Shown: piece after piece, positions 131 through 7,166 of the stretch
Numbering within the stretch: position 1 is the first letter of the stretch
Layout: every line of letters begins with the position of its first letter
Translations under genes and position numbers: made by a program
The notes under the pieces: generated by a model
Told to the model about the DNA's origin: nothing
What the model saw: only the letters and a program-made list of their open reading frames with translations
The model's database searches: none
Source: Candidatus Latescibacterota bacterium
Lineage (GTDB): Bacteria > JAAXHH01 > JACQVL01
Direction of reading: 5' to 3'
DNA: 7,166 nucleotides
Assembly (NCBI GenBank): GCA_016209865.1
Contig: JACQVL010000298.1
Coordinates: 1-7,166, forward strand

Positions 131-3100
131 CTACCGCATCAACAGCATCTTTCTCGTCTTCACGAACGTGCCCGCTTCCAGACGATACACGTACAGACCG
201 CTGGCGACCGGCCGTCCGCTGGCATCCCGCCCGTCCCACCGAATCGTGTAGAATCCGGCTGGCTTCGGGTCTCCGTCGAGAAGCGTGGCCACCTCCTGGC
301 CGAGGAGGTTGTAGATGCGGAGCGTGACTGCAGTCAATGCGGGCAGGTCGAAGCGAATCGTTGTCTCCGGGTTGAACGGGTTGGGATAATTCTGGTGAAG
401 GGCAAACTCGCGTGGCGGGGTGACGCGCACGGCGATCGGGTCGAACCGCTCCCGGAGACCCGTTCTATACACCGCTTCCAGCCGGTAATAGTATGCTGCG
501 TTGACCTGGACGATGGGATCGATGAAGGCGTAATGTCCGTGGGTGCCTGTGATGAGGACGGAGGTGATCCGTTCGTACGCGCCATCCTGTGCGACGCTCC
601 GTTCGACGTGGAAGCCGGTGAGGTCGTGGTCGTTCGCGGTGCTCCAGCGGAGCGTGACGACCCCGCGCGATTCGTCTGCGACGAATGAGGCGAGCGTGAC
701 CCCCGTCGGCTGGCCTGCGCTGGCGATGAACGTCGCTGCGGGCATCCACCATCCAGCGAACGTGCCGTCATCCGCACGCACGCGCCACCAGTAGCGCGTG
801 CCATCTGTCAAGACGATCCCACTGGGCAAGTTGGGGTCCGAGACTTCCCAGTGGGTCGGGTTGTTGCCCGTCCCCTGTGGGACGCCGGAGGCCTGAATGA
901 CCGAATTGGCGAACGCGGAGTCGGCGGCAACGACGAACTCGTACGTCAGCACGGCCCGGCTCGTGTCGACGGGTGTGGCGTTCGAGATGACGAGGACGGG
1001 CTTGAGGGAGACGGTGTCCCCGGACGCGGGGCTGATGGCGGCGGGCGCGGTCGGGATGCTCGTCGCGGACGGCAACGCCTGCGCGGAATCCGACGGCACG
1101 CTCTCTTTGCCCGATGTACTGACCGTCCTCACCCGATAGGTGAACGTCTGGCCGTTGGCTGCGCTGGCGTCGAGGAGGGTGGTATCCGACACCCCGGTCG
1201 CTAACGGCGTTCCGTTCCGGTACACATTATACCCCGTCACCCCTGTCGAGGTCGAGCGCCGCCACCGGAGCCGCACCGCACCGCTGCCGGGGATGGCCAT
1301 CAGCCCGGACGGACGATCGGGGAGGGTGGTATCCGCCACGGCCGGAGTGAGCAGGCTGTCCATGCTGCTGTACCCGACTCGCAGACCGGTCGTGTCCGTC
1401 GCTGCCACCGCGCCGACCCGGACGTAGTACCTCGTGTTCAGGAGCAGACGGGAAGCCGAGAGAGTATGCGTCAGCCCGCTGGTGTTTTCGATCGAGGCGA
1501 CTGACAGGGAATCCGGCCGCGCCCCGATTTCCAGCAGGCCGGTCGCCAGTTTATCGGTGTTCCATCTCATCGTCACCGTCCCGGTCGTATCCTGCCCGAC
1601 TGTCACCGTCTTCGTCAGGCCGCTGATGACGGGCGGGACGGTGTCCGGGCTGGCGGAGGTCGTCACCGTCAGCGTGGTGCTCGGCGTCGGGCCATTGCCG
1701 TTGAGGTCGGTGGACAGGACACGGACGTAGTACTGCTGGTTGGGTTCGAGCGGGGTGATCGTGATCGAGTGCGCGGTGACCGGTTCAGGGTCGTCCACCG
1801 TTTCGGTCAGGCTGTCCGGGACCGTGCCGTATTCGACCACGCTGTCCGACAGTTCGTCCGTCTGCCAGACGATGACGGCTAAGTTATTCGACGGGCTGGC
1901 GGTGAGCGACCCTGAGATGATGACGGGCGGGTCGGCATCCGTCACGCTGGTTGTCGTCGTATAGAGCGAGCCGCTCGGCGTGGGGCCGTTCCCGATCGGG
2001 TCAGTGGAGTTCACCTGATACTGGTAGGTCGTCGCCGCGTTCAGGCCGGTCAGGGTCATCTGGTGGAAGGTCACCAGGTCAGACACACTGACCTCCTGGT
2101 CGAGGGTCGATCCGGCCCCGAACTGGACGACGCTGTCGCTAATTTCGTCCGTTTCCCAGGAGACTGTCATCGTCGAGGCGGTCTGGGCCACGATCGTCGG
2201 GCCCGCTAAGATGATGGGCGTCTGGGTATCGGGCGTCGGATTCGTCGTGAACCGCCCACCGCTACCGGGGACCTGAACCGTCGTGCTCGGAGTCAGCCGT
2301 TTGGTCGGGATAGTCGCGCCGGGCGGCCAGACGACGGTGTTCCCGCTCGGGTCGGTCGAGGTCACCCGGAACGTGTACCCGACCCCGCGCCGGAGGCCGA
2401 ACACTTTGACGACGTGCTTCCGGACGAAGTTGCTGTTTCCTTGCGATTGGAACAGACTGTCCCCGTCCGCCTGGTAGTAGACGAAGCTATCGCTCGCTTC
2501 GTTCGTCATCCAGCCGAACACGGCGACCTCATCTCCCACATACAGCAGGCGCGGAGTCTGGACAAGGCGCGGCGGCTGGGTGTCCGGCGTGGTCCGTGTC
2601 CTGAACGTCCGGCGCGGCCCGGTCACCCGGTCGTTCGATTGATCGACGGAGATGACGATGTAGGCATAGTGCGTGCCGGGCGTGAGGTCGGTCAGTGTGA
2701 CGACGTGCTGGCGGGCGAGGGAGAGGTCGGGGTTGACTGTCTCGACCGTGTCCGTCGTCCCGACGACCCAGTACTGCACCCGGCTGTCGCTCACCCGGTC
2801 GGTCGTCCAGGTGATGATCGCGCTCGTCTCGGTAATCCCGCGCTCCTCCGGGCGGACGATGATGCGGAGGGGCGCGACCTGCGAGACGGCGGGGGTTTTA
2901 AACGTCAGCGTGTCCCGGTACGCCGTCGTCCGGCCTGCGGCGTTCGTGGAACTGGCGAGGTAGTAGTAGGTCGTGTCCGCCGTCAGGCTGGTGAGCAGGA
3001 TGGCGTGCTCCCGGACGAGCGTCGGATCGCTCACGACCGTCCCTAAGGCTTTGGTCAGGCCGAATTCGACGGTGCTCGTCGCCAGGACGTCCGTCTCCCA

Positions 3101-4708
3101 CCCGATCAGCGCATCCTGCGACCGTCTCGACAGGAGGCGCGGCCGGCCGATGATCCGGGGGGCGGTCGTGTCCGGCGCCGCTTTGGTGCGGAAATTCCGC
3201 ACGTTGGACGACACCTCATTCCCGCTCGCATCCGACGAGAAGACCTGGTAGAAATACTTCGTATTCCGCGTCAGGTTGCCGATCGCCACGCTGTGGAGGA
3301 GGACGAGTCCGGAATCGTCGGAGGCCGTCTGGAGGGCATTTTGCGCAAGGCCGATGGCGACCCGGCTGGTCGAAAGCTCATTCGTGATCCAGGTGACGAC
3401 GACCGACGTATCCGCCGGGTCGGCGGTCGGGCCGTCCGTGATGGTCGGGGGCTTCGTGTCGACGACGAGGTTTCCCTTCGCGATGCCGGCGAGGTCGGAG
3501 AGGTGGGAGAGCGCGGCGACGAGGGACGGAAGGCCGTCGGGCACGCGGACGACCTGGGAGACCAGGCCCGCCTGGGTGAATTCTTTGTCCGTCGAGTACG
3601 CGAAGACGAGGGAATCGACCGCCGAGGAATCGACGCCGGACGCGTGCATGATGCGGGTGAATCGAGCTAATGGCAGCGTCAGGCCGATCGGAAACCCGTC
3701 CTCAAAATCGAACCGGTCGCGCGGATGATCGTTGATCGACACCGTCCCGGTGACGAAGAAGAACACTGGCTTCCCGCGGACGGCGGCGAAGGCCGTCTGC
3801 CCGTCCGGCTGGACGGTCGCCCCGTGGACGGTCAGGTCGAGGCCGATCGACTGGCTGATGCTCCGGAGCGGGATGTCGATGCGTGTCCCCTGGAGCGCGT
3901 CGTACAGCGGCTGAAGCCGGGGGTCGGAGGCGGTGAGCGCCGGGATGGTGAACGACTGGCCGGCTGGACGGGTCTCGGTGAACACGGTGACGCTCGTGTC
4001 TTGCGGAGCGCCCGCGAACCGGACGCGCAGCCGAAACGAGAACGCCACCTCGTCGGCTTTGACGTACGTAAACCCTTTCTTCAGTTGGGCGGACTGGCTG
4101 TCCGGGTTCGTCACAACGACATCCCGCTCGCCCGCCGTGCCGGGCGGAGTCAGAGCGGTGATCGTATCGGCGGAGACGACGGTGACGGTGGTGGCCGCCG
4201 CACCCCCGATCGTGACGGTCGCGCCCGCCTTGAAGTTCTGCCCGGTGATCATCACGGGCGTCCCGCCGGTCGTCGGCCCGCTGTTGGGAATAATGGCGGT
4301 GATGAGGGGCGCAGGGGGTGGCGGGGGAGCCACATAGGTGAACCCATTGTTGAGTGTATCAAACTGGCCATCCGGGTTTGTGACCTTCACAGCCTCCTTG
4401 CCCGCTGTTCCAGGGGGTGTAATGGCCTTGATGGAATCGGCAGAGATGAACTTAACACTATCTGCTGACACCCCTCCGATTTTCACAGTCGCTCCATCCT
4501 GGAAATTCTGCCCGGTGATCGTCACGGGCGTCCCGCCGGTCGTCGGGCCGCTGTCGGGGCTGATGGCGGTGATGCGCGGCTTGGGCGGGGGCGGCGCGGT
4601 CGGGGTTGCCACGCGTTGCGCCTGAGCATTCGTCACGGATGCGCTCCAGAGTGGCAGGAGCAACAGGACGACGGCTATGAAAGTTTTGAGAGGGGTTGTC
4701 GTTTTCAT
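131..4708 (-). CDS. Giant secreted multidomain protein: IPT/TIG domains, FN3-like repeats, type IX sorting tail
   Basis: The protein is 1525 residues. Residues 1-30 are a signal peptide (hydrophobic core IAVVLLLLPL, then ASVTNAQA). A Pro-rich linker (36-44) leads to two IPT/TIG domains (about 45-126 and 135-216), both with SGPTTGGTPV and ITGQNF. Residues 217-415 match nothing I recognise. Seven tandem FN3-like repeats of the purple-acid-phosphatase N-domain type follow (about 417-1124), each with W.T(D/N)..(S/A)(D/T)S and most ending Y.V.S.D..GN. Then come a canonical FN3 (about 1128-1213), an Ig-like module with YWWRVRADDG (1217-1330), an FN3-like module (1334-1430) and a C-terminal sorting/FlgD-like domain (1434-1525). 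No enzyme motif is visible, so it is probably a cell-surface or released adhesive or scaffold protein. The start is supported by the signal peptide and an AAAGGATGGAG ribosome-binding region overlapping the permease stop. The reading frame is intact. Export by type IX secretion is inferred from the tail; ligand and function are unknown. Confidence 0.93.
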   Translation of the reverse strand: MKTTTPLKTFIAVVLLLLPLWSASVTNAQAQRVATPTAPPPPKPRITAISPDSGPTTGGTPVTITGQNFQDGATVKIGGVSADSVKFISADSIKAITPPGTAGKEAVKVTNPDGQFDTLNNGFTYVAPPPPPAPLITAIIPNSGPTTGGTPVMITGQNFKAGATVTIGGAAATTVTVVSADTITALTPPGTAGERDVVVTNPDSQSAQLKKGFTYVKADEVAFSFRLRVRFAGAPQDTSVTVFTETRPAGQSFTIPALTASDPRLQPLYDALQGTRIDIPLRSISQSIGLDLTVHGATVQPDGQTAFAAVRGKPVFFFVTGTVSINDHPRDRFDFEDGFPIGLTLPLARFTRIMHASGVDSSAVDSLVFAYSTDKEFTQAGLVSQVVRVPDGLPSLVAALSHLSDLAGIAKGNLVVDTKPPTITDGPTADPADTSVVVTWITNELSTSRVAIGLAQNALQTASDDSGLVLLHSVAIGNLTRNTKYFYQVFSSDASGNEVSSNVRNFRTKAAPDTTAPRIIGRPRLLSRRSQDALIGWETDVLATSTVEFGLTKALGTVVSDPTLVREHAILLTSLTADTTYYYLASSTNAAGRTTAYRDTLTFKTPAVSQVAPLRIIVRPEERGITETSAIITWTTDRVSDSRVQYWVVGTTDTVETVNPDLSLARQHVVTLTDLTPGTHYAYIVISVDQSNDRVTGPRRTFRTRTTPDTQPPRLVQTPRLLYVGDEVAVFGWMTNEASDSFVYYQADGDSLFQSQGNSNFVRKHVVKVFGLRRGVGYTFRVTSTDPSGNTVVWPPGATIPTKRLTPSTTVQVPGSGGRFTTNPTPDTQTPIILAGPTIVAQTASTMTVSWETDEISDSVVQFGAGSTLDQEVSVSDLVTFHQMTLTGLNAATTYQYQVNSTDPIGNGPTPSGSLYTTTTSVTDADPPVIISGSLTASPSNNLAVIVWQTDELSDSVVEYGTVPDSLTETVDDPEPVTAHSITITPLEPNQQYYVRVLSTDLNGNGPTPSTTLTVTTSASPDTVPPVISGLTKTVTVGQDTTGTVTMRWNTDKLATGLLEIGARPDSLSVASIENTSGLTHTLSASRLLLNTRYYVRVGAVAATDTTGLRVGYSSMDSLLTPAVADTTLPDRPSGLMAIPGSGAVRLRWRRSTSTGVTGYNVYRNGTPLATGVSDTTLLDASAANGQTFTYRVRTVSTSGKESVPSDSAQALPSATSIPTAPAAISPASGDTVSLKPVLVISNATPVDTSRAVLTYEFVVAADSAFANSVIQASGVPQGTGNNPTHWEVSDPNLPSGIVLTDGTRYWWRVRADDGTFAGWWMPAATFIASAGQPTGVTLASFVADESRGVVTLRWSTANDHDLTGFHVERSVAQDGAYERITSVLITGTHGHYAFIDPIVQVNAAYYYRLEAVYRTGLRERFDPIAVRVTPPREFALHQNYPNPFNPETTIRFDLPALTAVTLRIYNLLGQEVATLLDGDPKPAGFYTIRWDGRDASGRPVASGLYVYRLEAGTFVKTRKMLLMR
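134..409 (-). other. C-terminal type IX (Por) sorting / FlgD-like domain of the giant protein
   Basis: Residues 1434-1525 contain, in order, the motifs HQNYPNPFNPETTIRFDLP, LRIYNLLGQEVATL, GFYTIRWDGRD and VASGLYVYRL, ending KTRKMLLMR. This order is characteristic of type-A sorting domains (TIGR04183-like) in the FCB group, which direct a protein through the type IX secretion system and are often removed at the cell surface. The fold resembles the FlgD Ig-like domain. It is the strongest taxonomic marker in the window. Whether this organism has a type IX secretion apparatus cannot be seen here. Confidence 0.9.
1337..3460 (-). repeat. Seven tandem FN3-like repeats coded within the giant gene
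   Basis: The core tryptophans fall at residues 440, 537, 634, 733, 851, 948 and 1049, giving spacings of 97, 97, 99, 118, 97 and 101 residues. Each repeat has a W-x-(T/T-equivalent)-(D/N) strand followed by S-x-x-(V/L)-x-(F/Y/I)G, and six of the seven start after a linker of the form DTxxP or DADPP. Examples are WETDEISDSVVQFG and WQTDELSDSVVEYG. Paralogous repeats have diverged at the protein level, so this is an old array rather than a recent tandem duplication. The one irregular spacing is caused by an insertion at about residues 803-825, rich in Thr, Ser, Pro and Gly. Such arrays usually act as rigid spacers or ligand-binding stalks. Confidence 0.85.
4231..4580 (-). repeat. Direct repeat at the start of each IPT/TIG domain (4231-4310 and 4501-4580)
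   Basis: The two 80-bp segments align without gaps at a 270-bp offset with 10 mismatches by hand count (87.5% identity), including many identical third codon positions. They encode the IPT opening strand with SGPTTGGTPV and ITGQNF. The adjoining 60 bp (4171-4230 versus 4441-4500) align in the same register but differ at 24 positions. The identity therefore falls sharply at one boundary, which fits partial duplication or gene conversion between the domains. Confidence 0.75.
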
Positions 4709-4712
4709 TCTT

Positions 4713-4723
4713 CTCCATCCTTT
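4713..4723 (-). promoter_or_regulatory. Ribosome-binding region of the giant gene, overlapping the permease stop
   Basis: The minus strand reads TAAAGGATGGAGAAGAATG. TAA is the permease stop (4724-4722), AAAGGA and GGAG are both purine-rich Shine-Dalgarno candidates, and the final ATG is the chosen start. GGAG sits 4 nt and GGA about 10 nt from the start. The overlap suggests translational coupling. A second ATG at 4718-4716 opens a different frame of 86 codons with no signal peptide or domain and is not a gene. Confidence 0.6.
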
Positions 4724-6365
4724 AGCGACGATCTTGAGTCGTCAGCAGTGCCACGCCGCAGACGCACCCTAACGCTAAGGCATACAGACAGGCCGTATAC
4801 ACGATCTCCCAGCCGCCCGGCAGCAGAGGAGCCACGCCCATCGCGCGAATGACGATCCAGCCGAGCGACACGACCACGAGGAGGAGGACAAGAGCGGTCA
4901 CGACCTCGCCGCGACTCGTCCCAAGCCAGGACGTCCGGCCGGACGGGTTCGCGGTCGCGTACTCGCGGGCGAAACGGGCAGCGACTTCCTCCGGCGCGGC
5001 AGTCTTGAGGCGCTTCCGCGCCCAAAGGGCATAGTACACCATTCCCCCTATATATAACACTAAGGTGAAGGGCAGGACGTTGATGTTCGTCACCGAGTAC
5101 ATCACCGCCGCGAACAGCGCGAGGATGGCGACCACGACCGGCAACACCGGGTAGACGGGGACCCGATACGGCCTGGGCAGGCCCGGCTCTGATCGCCGGA
5201 GCGCGAACAGGCAGTAGATGCTGAGGATGTACCAGATGAGCGCGGTCAGCGTCGAAACCAGGATCGCCTGCTCGATCGCCTGCTTGTTGAAGTACCCCCA
5301 GGCGATGAACCCGACCGTGACGAGCGACCAGACGAACAACGAGACGGTCGGGGTGCGACGGGTGACATGAACGGTCCCGAAGATGAGCGGCAGGTAGCCC
5401 GCGCGGCCGAGGGCGTACGACTGCCGGCTGGTGGAATACAGCATCCCGTTGAAGCTGACGAGCAGTCCCGCCAAGGCGACCGCCGAGAACGCGGTCACCA
5501 GCCACTCCAACCCGGTGCCGCCCCACACGTCCTGCATGACGAGGGACAGCGGGAACGCGACCGCGCCCGTCTGCTGGTAGTCACGGCCCGCGCCCACCGC
5601 GAAGAACCAGGTCGCCACGACTAACCCGACGAGCGTGATCTGTCCCCAGACCAACCCGGCCGGCAGGTTGCGCTCCGGCTCGTGGACTTCCTCGGCGGAG
5701 AGGGCGACCGCCTCGATGACGACCAGCCACCAGAGGGCGTACGGGACCGCGCCGAGCACCCCCTTCCAGCCGTTCGGCAGCAGCGGGTCGGTCACGATCC
5801 GGTCGAGCCGGACCGCGGGCGCGACCGCGACCCAGAACAAGACGAGCGCGCCGATGGCGGCGTACGTCAGCCACAGAGCGAGGGTCGCCTGCTCCCGCAC
5901 CCCGACGCACTGGAGGGCGAAGAAGATCACAGTGACGATGACCGCGAAGAAGGTCACGTGCAGCGGATCTTGTTGCTGGGAATTGACCAGAAACGCCAGA
6001 AAACTCCCCGCCGCCAGTCCGGTGCCGATCGTCGCGAACAGCGACTCTAAGAACATCGACCATCCCATCAAAAACCCGAACCACGGGCCGACGGCGCGGC
6101 GGCCGTACGCGAGCGGTCCCCCGGAGAACGGTAGGGCGACGGACAGTTCGGCGAGCGCCAGCACCCAGACCAGGTAGAGCACACACACGAACAGGCTGGC
6201 GATCAGCATGCCGAGCGGGCCGCCGACCGGCAGGCCGTAGTTCCACCCGAAATACTCGCCCGCGATCACCACCCCGACGGCCAGGCTCCAGACGTGGATC
6301 GCCCGCAGAGGACGTTTCAATTCCCGTTCCTTGATGTACTCCTGCTCCTCTTTGGTCAGCTCCAT
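4722..6365 (-). CDS. APC-superfamily permease, ethanolamine/amino-acid permease-like, with C-terminal extension
   Basis: This 547-residue polytopic inner-membrane protein probably imports an amine or amino acid by cation- or substrate-coupled transport. TM1 carries GVVIAGEYFGWNYGL (31-45), which closely resembles ethanolamine permeases, whose TM1 has a similar FGWN/S-Y-G stretch. The loop after TM6 has AEEVHEPERNLPAGL (224-238), the conserved APC motif. Twelve helices are readable at about 24-45, 50-71, 97-127, 136-155, 161-183, 202-224, 237-258, 284-306, 340-358, 363-390, 405-425 and 430-449. A charged loop (450-487) and two more hydrophobic segments (488-508, 519-542) follow, making it longer than the usual members of about 440-490 residues. 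I start at M23 of the longest frame because GGGAG lies 5 nt upstream and the 22 extra residues would be coded by the palindromic repeat. No ethanolamine ammonia-lyase genes are in view, so the substrate is uncertain. Confidence 0.9.
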   Translation of the reverse strand: MELTKEEQEYIKERELKRPLRAIHVWSLAVGVVIAGEYFGWNYGLPVGGPLGMLIASLFVCVLYLVWVLALAELSVALPFSGGPLAYGRRAVGPWFGFLMGWSMFLESLFATIGTGLAAGSFLAFLVNSQQQDPLHVTFFAVIVTVIFFALQCVGVREQATLALWLTYAAIGALVLFWVAVAPAVRLDRIVTDPLLPNGWKGVLGAVPYALWWLVVIEAVALSAEEVHEPERNLPAGLVWGQITLVGLVVATWFFAVGAGRDYQQTGAVAFPLSLVMQDVWGGTGLEWLVTAFSAVALAGLLVSFNGMLYSTSRQSYALGRAGYLPLIFGTVHVTRRTPTVSLFVWSLVTVGFIAWGYFNKQAIEQAILVSTLTALIWYILSIYCLFALRRSEPGLPRPYRVPVYPVLPVVVAILALFAAVMYSVTNINVLPFTLVLYIGGMVYYALWARKRLKTAAPEEVAARFAREYATANPSGRTSWLGTSRGEVVTALVLLLVVVSLGWIVIRAMGVAPLLPGGWEIVYTACLYALALGCVCGVALLTTQDRR

Positions 6366-6370
6366 CGTCG

Positions 6371-6375
6371 CTCCC
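6371..6375 (-). promoter_or_regulatory. Ribosome-binding site of the permease
   Basis: GGGAG is followed by CGACG and ATG at 6365-6363, an ideal 5-nt spacing. It decides the start against an in-frame upstream ATG at 6431, which lies inside the inverted repeat and has no good Shine-Dalgarno sequence. The site is just outside the repeat arm (6389-6403). Confidence 0.65.
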
Positions 6376-6388
6376 GTGCCGATTGCAA

Positions 6389-6449
6389 GGGCGAAGCATT
6401 CGCTGGCAGCCCCAGGGGATGTTTGCCTCAACAGGCGAATGCTTCGCCC
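6389..6449. repeat. Palindromic intergenic element with 15-bp perfect inverted repeat
   Basis: The arm GGGCGAAGCATTCGC at 6389-6403 is perfectly complementary to GCGAATGCTTCGCCC at 6435-6449, with a 31-nt loop. The loop contains a smaller CCCC-A-GGGG palindrome (about 6410-6418) and can also pair GGCA (6405-6408) with TGCC (6424-6427). It fills most of the 84-bp gap between the glmU-like gene and the permease and abuts the glmU stop codon. No T-run follows the hairpin on either strand, so it is not a standard Rho-independent terminator. The core GGGGCGAAGCATTCGC resembles a dispersed palindromic repeat I recall from several unrelated bacterial genomes. Copy number cannot be judged from one window. 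It could stabilise the upstream message or attenuate transcription into the permease. Confidence 0.75.
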
Positions 6450-7166
6450 CTACCGATCCGTCCGGCCCATCCGGTCCGTCCGTTCCGTTGTCGTCTCCTC
6501 GAACACCCGGACGAACCGCGCCGTCTCCGCCGGACCCATCGTGACCTTCCGCCGGGCCATCACCCGCTGCGCCACTTCCAGCGCTTTGTCGCACCGGTAC
6601 TCCGTCATGCCGTCCGGGCCGCACCAGCAGAACGACGGGATGAACTTCGGGGGAAACCCGGACGCGACGACGTTGCTCGAAAACCCCACCACCGTCCCGG
6701 TGTTGAAGACAGTGTTGATGGCGGACTTGACGTAATCGCCCATGAACAGACCGACGAACGTCAATCCGGTGTCGATGAGCCTGTCGTGAAGCTGGACGGC
6801 CACCGGCCCGTACGTGTTCTTCAGATCGCTGTTCGTCGTCCCCGCGCCCAAGTTGATCCATTGCCCCAGGTAGGCGTGCCCTAAGAAACCGTCGTGTTGT
6901 TTATTCGAATACCCGTGGATGATCGACGCGTCGATCTCCCCCGCCACCTTGCACACCGGCCCGATCGTCGTCCCCTCGTAGATGCGGGCGCCCGCCTTGA
7001 CGAGCGTGCCATCGCCCACACAGGCCGGGCCCTGGATGTAGACGTGGGGGAGAACCCGCGCCCCGCGGCCGATGACGATCGGCCCGTCGGTCGCAGCCAG
7101 GACGACGCCGGGCAGGATGATGGTGTCCACTCCGATGATGATCTCCGCTTCGTTCAACATCTGCAC
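6450..7166 (-). CDS. GlmU-like sugar-nucleotidyl/acetyltransferase, C-terminal beta-helix domain (5' end off window)
   Basis: The frame is open to the right edge (238 codons seen). The first codon is GTG inside an open frame, so this is not the true start and the expected N-terminal nucleotidyltransferase domain lies outside. The visible part is a left-handed beta-helix of hexapeptide repeats, for example IIIGVDTIILPGVVL, PIVIGRGARVLP and GTTIGP (1-70). It continues with HGYSNKQHDGFLGHAYLG (84-101), INLGAGTTNSDLKNTYG (104-120), GLFMGDYVKSAINTVFNTGT (139-158) and SGFPPKFIPSFCWCG (169-183). These match the alternative bacterial GlmU family (TIGR03991-like, UDP-GlcNAc diphosphorylase/glucosamine-1-phosphate acetyltransferase) of Bacteroidetes and relatives. 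His91 in KQHDGFLG aligns by eye with the catalytic His of classical GlmU (HLTYLG). The enzyme would make UDP-GlcNAc or a related sugar nucleotide in the cytoplasm. The last residues (TTTERTDRMGRTDR) are low-complexity and probably not part of the fold. Confidence 0.88.
   Translation of the reverse strand: MQMLNEAEIIIGVDTIILPGVVLAATDGPIVIGRGARVLPHVYIQGPACVGDGTLVKAGARIYEGTTIGPVCKVAGEIDASIIHGYSNKQHDGFLGHAYLGQWINLGAGTTNSDLKNTYGPVAVQLHDRLIDTGLTFVGLFMGDYVKSAINTVFNTGTVVGFSSNVVASGFPPKFIPSFCWCGPDGMTEYRCDKALEVAQRVMARRKVTMGPAETARFVRVFEETTTERTDRMGRTDR
6453..6495. repeat. Degenerate short repeat coding the tail of the GlmU-like protein
   Basis: On the minus strand the stretch is a run of imperfect units such as ACGGACGGACCGG, ATGGGCCGGACGG and ATCGG. 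It encodes the ERTDRMGRTDR tail, in which RTDR occurs twice. This is simple-sequence DNA next to the palindromic element. It probably expanded by slippage or came with the element, and it extends the protein past its natural end. Confidence 0.5.

Follow-up and report, generated by a model that had tools for sequence, protein, structure and literature searches.

REPINs (Bertels and Rainey 2011, PMC3116915) are units of about 71 bp with two inverted GTAG-tagged ends, a hairpin within each arm, compensatory changes, and a spacer that varies in sequence and not in length, and they occur in hundreds of copies. Head-head dimers of GTAG REPs (Di Nocera et al. 2013, PMC3733652) carry the same tag, are spaced 20–100 bp apart, and lie at gene 3′ ends, where their termini often supply a TAG stop to flanking ORFs. 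The double-foot REPs of TnpA-REP subclass 2.4, or RAYT group 4 (Quentin et al. 2018, PMC6006769), are defined by a GT[AG]G foot at one terminus and its complement at the opposite terminus; each is a single long REP with one long stem, their occurrence is patchy over many phyla, and REP copies inside the tnpA-REP frame, between the HUH and Tyr motifs, were described in 2018 as unique to this subclass. For the chemistry of TnpA-REP proteins, cutting at CT has been reported (PMC8266576), a dinucleotide contained in CTAC, the complement of GTAG. The palindrome that follows the glmU-like gene in the stretch studied here is of this known kind, a double-foot GTAG REP that is REPIN-like in size.

Within the window, meaning the whole 7,166-nt stretch that was analyzed, the element separates the 3′ part of a glmU-like gene from a permease gene (Table 1). 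The original prediction had placed a perfect 15-bp inverted repeat directly after the TAG stop of glmU, and this held exactly: the arms (GGGCGAAGCATTCGC) match without error at 6389–6403 (+) and 6435–6449 (−), and the TAG, which ends a 238-aa open frame, touches the right arm. With three mismatches allowed, this 15-mer would be expected only 0.41 times in the whole window; chance does not explain an exact inverted pair with 31 bp between its arms, and the repeat is confirmed as real. While the palindrome stood, the proposed unit size of 61 bp proved too small; the full unit consists of two 19-bp arms and a 31-nt spacer, reading on the minus strand GTAGGGGCGAAGCATTCGC, the spacer, and then GCGAATGCTTCGCCCTTGC, with a GTAG foot on one side and GCAA on the other. 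The element strand had a predicted folding energy of −42.9 kcal/mol compared with a mean of −27.7 for shuffled sequences (z = −4.5), and none of 200 shuffles folded as well. Terminator and promoter patterns were not found at the element, which has no T-tract, and an Rfam search of it gave no match. Adjoining the permease gene on the same strand, positions 131–4708 encode a 1525-aa secreted-type protein with TIG, purple-acid-phosphatase-N/FN3, and FlgD-like C-terminal domains.

Table 1. Coordinates of the element and its neighbors in the window, with further palindromes on other contigs of the host genome
Feature	Position	Strand	Evidence or remark
Whole 69-bp double-foot GTAG palindrome (REPIN-like unit)	6385..6453	−	31 paired copies in genome
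glmU-side arm GTAGGGGCGAAGCATTCGC	6435..6453	−	Consensus-perfect, GTAG foot
Spacer, 31 nt	6404..6434	−	Length kept among copies, sequence not
Permease-side arm GCAAGGGCGAAGCATTCGC	6385..6403	+	Two mismatches in foot
TAG stop of glmU-like gene	6450..6452	−	Within GTAG foot; most likely older than the insertion
Alternative bacterial glmU (TIGR03991), 3′ part, cut by contig end	6450..7166	−	NCBIfam TIGR03991, E 3.6e-98, above cut-off
Ribosome-binding-site-like GGGAG just past element	6371..6375	−	Read from sequence
APC-family permease; nearest model ethanolamine permease, below cut-off	4722..6365	−	ATG 6365–6363
Further 28-bp GTAG palindromes, host contigs	C104:4932–4959; C231:11336–11363; C161:18863–18890; also C259, C320		

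A genome-wide search with the 19-bp arm (up to three mismatches) returned 33 matches per strand and none for the reversed-pattern control, and pairing of the arms produced 31 units, 22 of them 66–74 bp long, beside a short class of 30–56 bp and two longer units. The palindrome is hence far from single-copy, and the proposal of a dispersed, mobile-type unit beginning with GTAGGGGCGAAGC was borne out. Over the 62 arms, the first four foot positions were G in 61, T in 58, A in 58, and G in 49 cases (A in 11). The arms are conserved across the 31 units, whereas spacer pairs were barely more alike than shuffled spacers. Co-variation between the two arms was pronounced, with 15 shared deviant columns against 3.9 in shuffles and none of 2000 shuffles as high. 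Compensated changes accounted for 14 of 450 base pairs between arms (422 intact) but for only 2 of 300 within an arm (252 intact), and for this reason we regard the long double-ended hairpin as the constrained structure. No target-site duplication was evident, as repeats of at least 2 bp flanked 2 of the 31 units compared with 2.6 by shuffling. Two side observations concern other repeats of this genome: at least two further 28-bp double-foot GTAG palindromes, GTAGGGGCGAATCATGATTCGCCCCTAC and GTAGGGGCGCAGCATGCTGCGCCCCTAC, occur together with close variants, and a longer composite repeat (ATGAATTTTGACGAYCAAAATCGGTAAARACCT ... GTAGGGGCGAATCTTGTATTCGCCCCGATGCGGGCGATCACAAGGATCGCCCCTAC ... TTTTGATTATCAAA; for example, C140:10187) has copies at the ends of contigs, where they probably interrupt the assembly.

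The conserved arms, fixed spacer length, co-variation, and lack of target-site duplication together place the family among GTAG REP inverted dimers, REPINs, and double-foot REPs. With REPINs (PMC3116915) it shares the inverted GTAG-tagged ends, the unit size, the compensatory changes, and the spacer behavior, yet pairing is conserved here between arms and not as a hairpin within each arm, which fits the double-foot type better, and copies number in the tens and not the hundreds. The likeness to GTAG REP dimers (PMC3733652) extends to tag, spacing, position at gene 3′ ends, and use of the TAG foot as stop codon, although the host phyla described below include several absent from that paper's list. 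Compared with subclass 2.4 (PMC6006769), the ends, the single long stem, the patchy occurrence over many phyla, and the location of units in the transposase frame in other hosts all agree; the loop of about 25–35 nt and the unit length of 60–79 bp differ from those of a single long REP, as does the host genome in having no transposase that we could find. In the running text of the papers examined, the arm sequence was not found.

The original prediction also suggested looking for a REP-associated Y1 or a MITE-mobilizing transposase; we found the former in other hosts and not in this one. Neither a Y1_Tnp (PF01797) profile search nor a profile built from element-bearing transposases, the latter aimed at RAYT genes, gave a match in the host genome, unlike a REPtron with its cognate Y1 gene; absence from an assembly that is 83% complete in 356 contigs is weak evidence. 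By comparison, Y1 genes are present in 16 of 18 element-bearing genomes, and those of other hosts both carry the unit and are flanked by it. Seven other hosts have a Y1 gene that contains, in frame, a unit with these arms, positioned between the HxH and Tyr-side motifs. The unit measures 72 bp in Brocadia WS118, Brocadia MAG_8, Oculatella, an Anaerolineales genome, and 'Delta' 1020, where it encodes GRGEAF...NASPL or close variants, and 73 bp in Calditrichaceae MAG_33 and PRO9, the frame after the insert appearing broken in PRO9. The NCBIfam match of these carriers is to REP-associated tyrosine transposase, at a score below the cut-off and in two stretches split by the insert. In related transposases this internal site is occupied by other GTAG palindromes, including one in the host's own order (G011, GTAGGGGCGGGTTTCAAACCCGCCCCTAC). 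In-frame REPs inside transposase genes have already been published (PMC6006769) and are hence not new. A transposase tree was poorly resolved, and carriers of this arm type did not form one clade. Among RAYT-like genes with other palindromes, we also observed the peptides VGAGFKPAPT, VGAIRELPLP, and others, the arm type varying while the site stays constant, and in one transposase frame (G041:C192) the right part of the REP is partly tandem-repeated (repeated NALPLRSAHGTQPGSLAAIVQNF) and the frame stays open.

To describe the spread of the family, we scanned one-genome-per-species contigs for exact 16-bp ends 28–58 nt apart, with all counts being among the matches listed. The same arms, in units of 60–79 bp, occur in at least eight phyla, and hosts among the matches listed comprise Cyanobacteria, Chloroflexi, Planctomycetota (Brocadia, Jettenia), Armatimonadetes, 'Deltaproteobacteria', Calditrichaceae, Latescibacterota, and Chitinophagaceae, names that come from record titles of mostly metagenome-assembled genomes, some of which may be misbinned. 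Unit lengths cluster at 71–73 bp (mode 72–73) among these matches, and spacers are alike inside one genome and different from genome to genome. An exact-pattern search found the exact family in no other genome of the host's own order, which fits a horizontal arrival of the element family. In the genus Microcystis, comparison with empty sites showed the element nested inside larger insertions. A viral collection contained one record with the unit, the putative viral contig UViG_3300021090_000266 of IMG/VR, which may be bacterial DNA; the spacers of its two copies (5557–5624 and 7390–7460) are nearly reverse-complementary.

In the host genome, the copies are found mostly in gaps between tandem or convergent genes or at the ends of such genes, in agreement with the expected placement at gene ends. 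Using a simple codon-usage gene caller, we found that the upstream gene ends exactly at the near-foot TAG or TAA in 14 of the 31 copies, while two genes enter in another frame (binomial p about 1e-5), and a cruder frame count gave 16 versus 8 and 3. At 113 loci of other phyla, adjoining open frames showed no excess of the TAG frame (13/10/8), and a stop-codon target is thus not a shown property of the whole family. Such feet could arise if the TAG came in with the element, landing in the 3′ part of glmU and making the protein shorter or longer, with selection retaining only insertions in the TAG frame; the original prediction likewise held that the insertion supplied the stop and left GlmU with a non-native tail. 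That GTAG feet contain TAG and that 14 copies read in this way agree with such a course, as does the published role of GTAG REP termini as stops for flanking ORFs (PMC3733652), and after in-silico removal of the whole unit 6 of the 14 genes do meet an in-frame stop within 40 codons, four of them within 7. The same removal leaves the other 8 without one over that distance and joins three genes to their downstream neighbors: glmU, which would run in frame into the permease, and the C42 and C336 genes. When one GTAG is kept instead, many junctions are closely followed by a start codon and a sequence resembling a ribosome site, and the glmU junction becomes a normal one with TAG, 19 nt, and ATG, with GGGAG 5 nt before the ATG.

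Protein ends point the same way. Orthologues were taken from same-order genomes, which lack this family by the exact-pattern search, with two of the 14 genes having none in the list. For rpsG, all 16 alignments (from 15 genomes, one of which enters twice) show the same last residue, with a native GTAG or GTAA. For the other genes with a stop at the foot, the best orthologue ends within −4 to +5 residues, and a few weaker or more distant matches are off by at least 10. The GlmU of the nearest relative, which lacks the element, is one residue shorter than that of the host, and those of other relatives are five and six shorter; relatives without the palindrome therefore share the stop for rpsG, and in position but not in codon for glmU. 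Since orthologue ends match, whole-unit deletion removes stops, and the junction with one GTAG is normal, the TAG most likely was the stop of glmU before insertion and then became the foot of the element. The reading of a non-native tail is probably wrong, and a stop brought by the element seems unlikely. In 13 of the 14 stop-at-foot copies, an A or T stands directly outside the far foot, compared with 36% AT in the set of loci, which may be a hint of target preference. More tentatively, and with some doubt on our part, the family may integrate at a short GTAG/GTAA target, such that in-frame stops at operon junctions would be preferred safe landing sites whose own stop becomes a foot.

A locally selected, immobile transcription terminator or mRNA-stabilizing hairpin would account for a strong hairpin exactly at the gene end and for the usual position of copies relative to tandem or convergent genes, but we consider it very improbable given the missing T-tract, the 31 dispersed copies, the identical arms in unrelated phyla, and the in-frame copies in transposase genes. 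Also very improbable is a MITE-type element moved by a DDE transposase, which matches the short, multi-copy unit with terminal inverted repeats and is disfavored by the lack of target-site duplication, the unconserved spacer within the host genome, and the Y1 genes of other hosts that carry and are flanked by the unit.

We therefore favor, with a probability of roughly 78%, a non-autonomous 69-bp double-foot GTAG REP of REPIN type that was mobilized by a Y1 enzyme and landed at an existing GTAG/TAG stop. Counting against this view are the missing Y1 and RAYT matches in the host genome, the absence of the exact family from same-order relatives, the equal use of frames next to elements of other phyla, and the poorly resolved transposase tree. 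The mobile unit would be the folded single strand, whose two GTAG feet and long arm-to-arm stem would be recognized by a Y1/HUH REP transposase of the TnpA-REP subclass 2.4 type, leaving the spacer free to drift. Copies would spread in trans without target-site duplication, as in Y1 (IS200/IS605-type) mobilization, from a source transposase whose reading frame in related hosts itself contains a unit of this type, the cognate enzyme of the host genome having presumably been lost or left unassembled. The glmU copy would have inserted into the operon junction where a GTAG or TAG stop already stood; this stop would have been retained, with the start signals of the permease still intact after insertion. 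In the mRNA, a strong predicted hairpin would extend from the stop codon on, right behind terminating ribosomes. Liang et al. (2015) reportedly found that a REP lying no more than about 15 nt from a stop codon can lower translation in E. coli. The element may have reshaped transcription between glmU and the permease, as originally suggested, and an RNA-level function could exist on top of mobility.

How REPs and REPINs choose integration sites is largely unsettled. The 14 junctions at which a foot is also the stop of a gene, with orthologues showing the native end, make a stop-codon (GTAR) target testable; if it is true, an element-free glmU-permease site would read ...GGATCGGTAG-AATCGGCACGGGAG... 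Similarly, the mobilization model, if true, would place a subclass 2.4 TnpA-REP with a GCGAAGCATT unit in frame in the host or a sister strain. The occurrence in at least eight phyla, together with the in-frame transposase copies, fits a gene with a built-in substrate that would be able to found a family in a new host by horizontal transfer.
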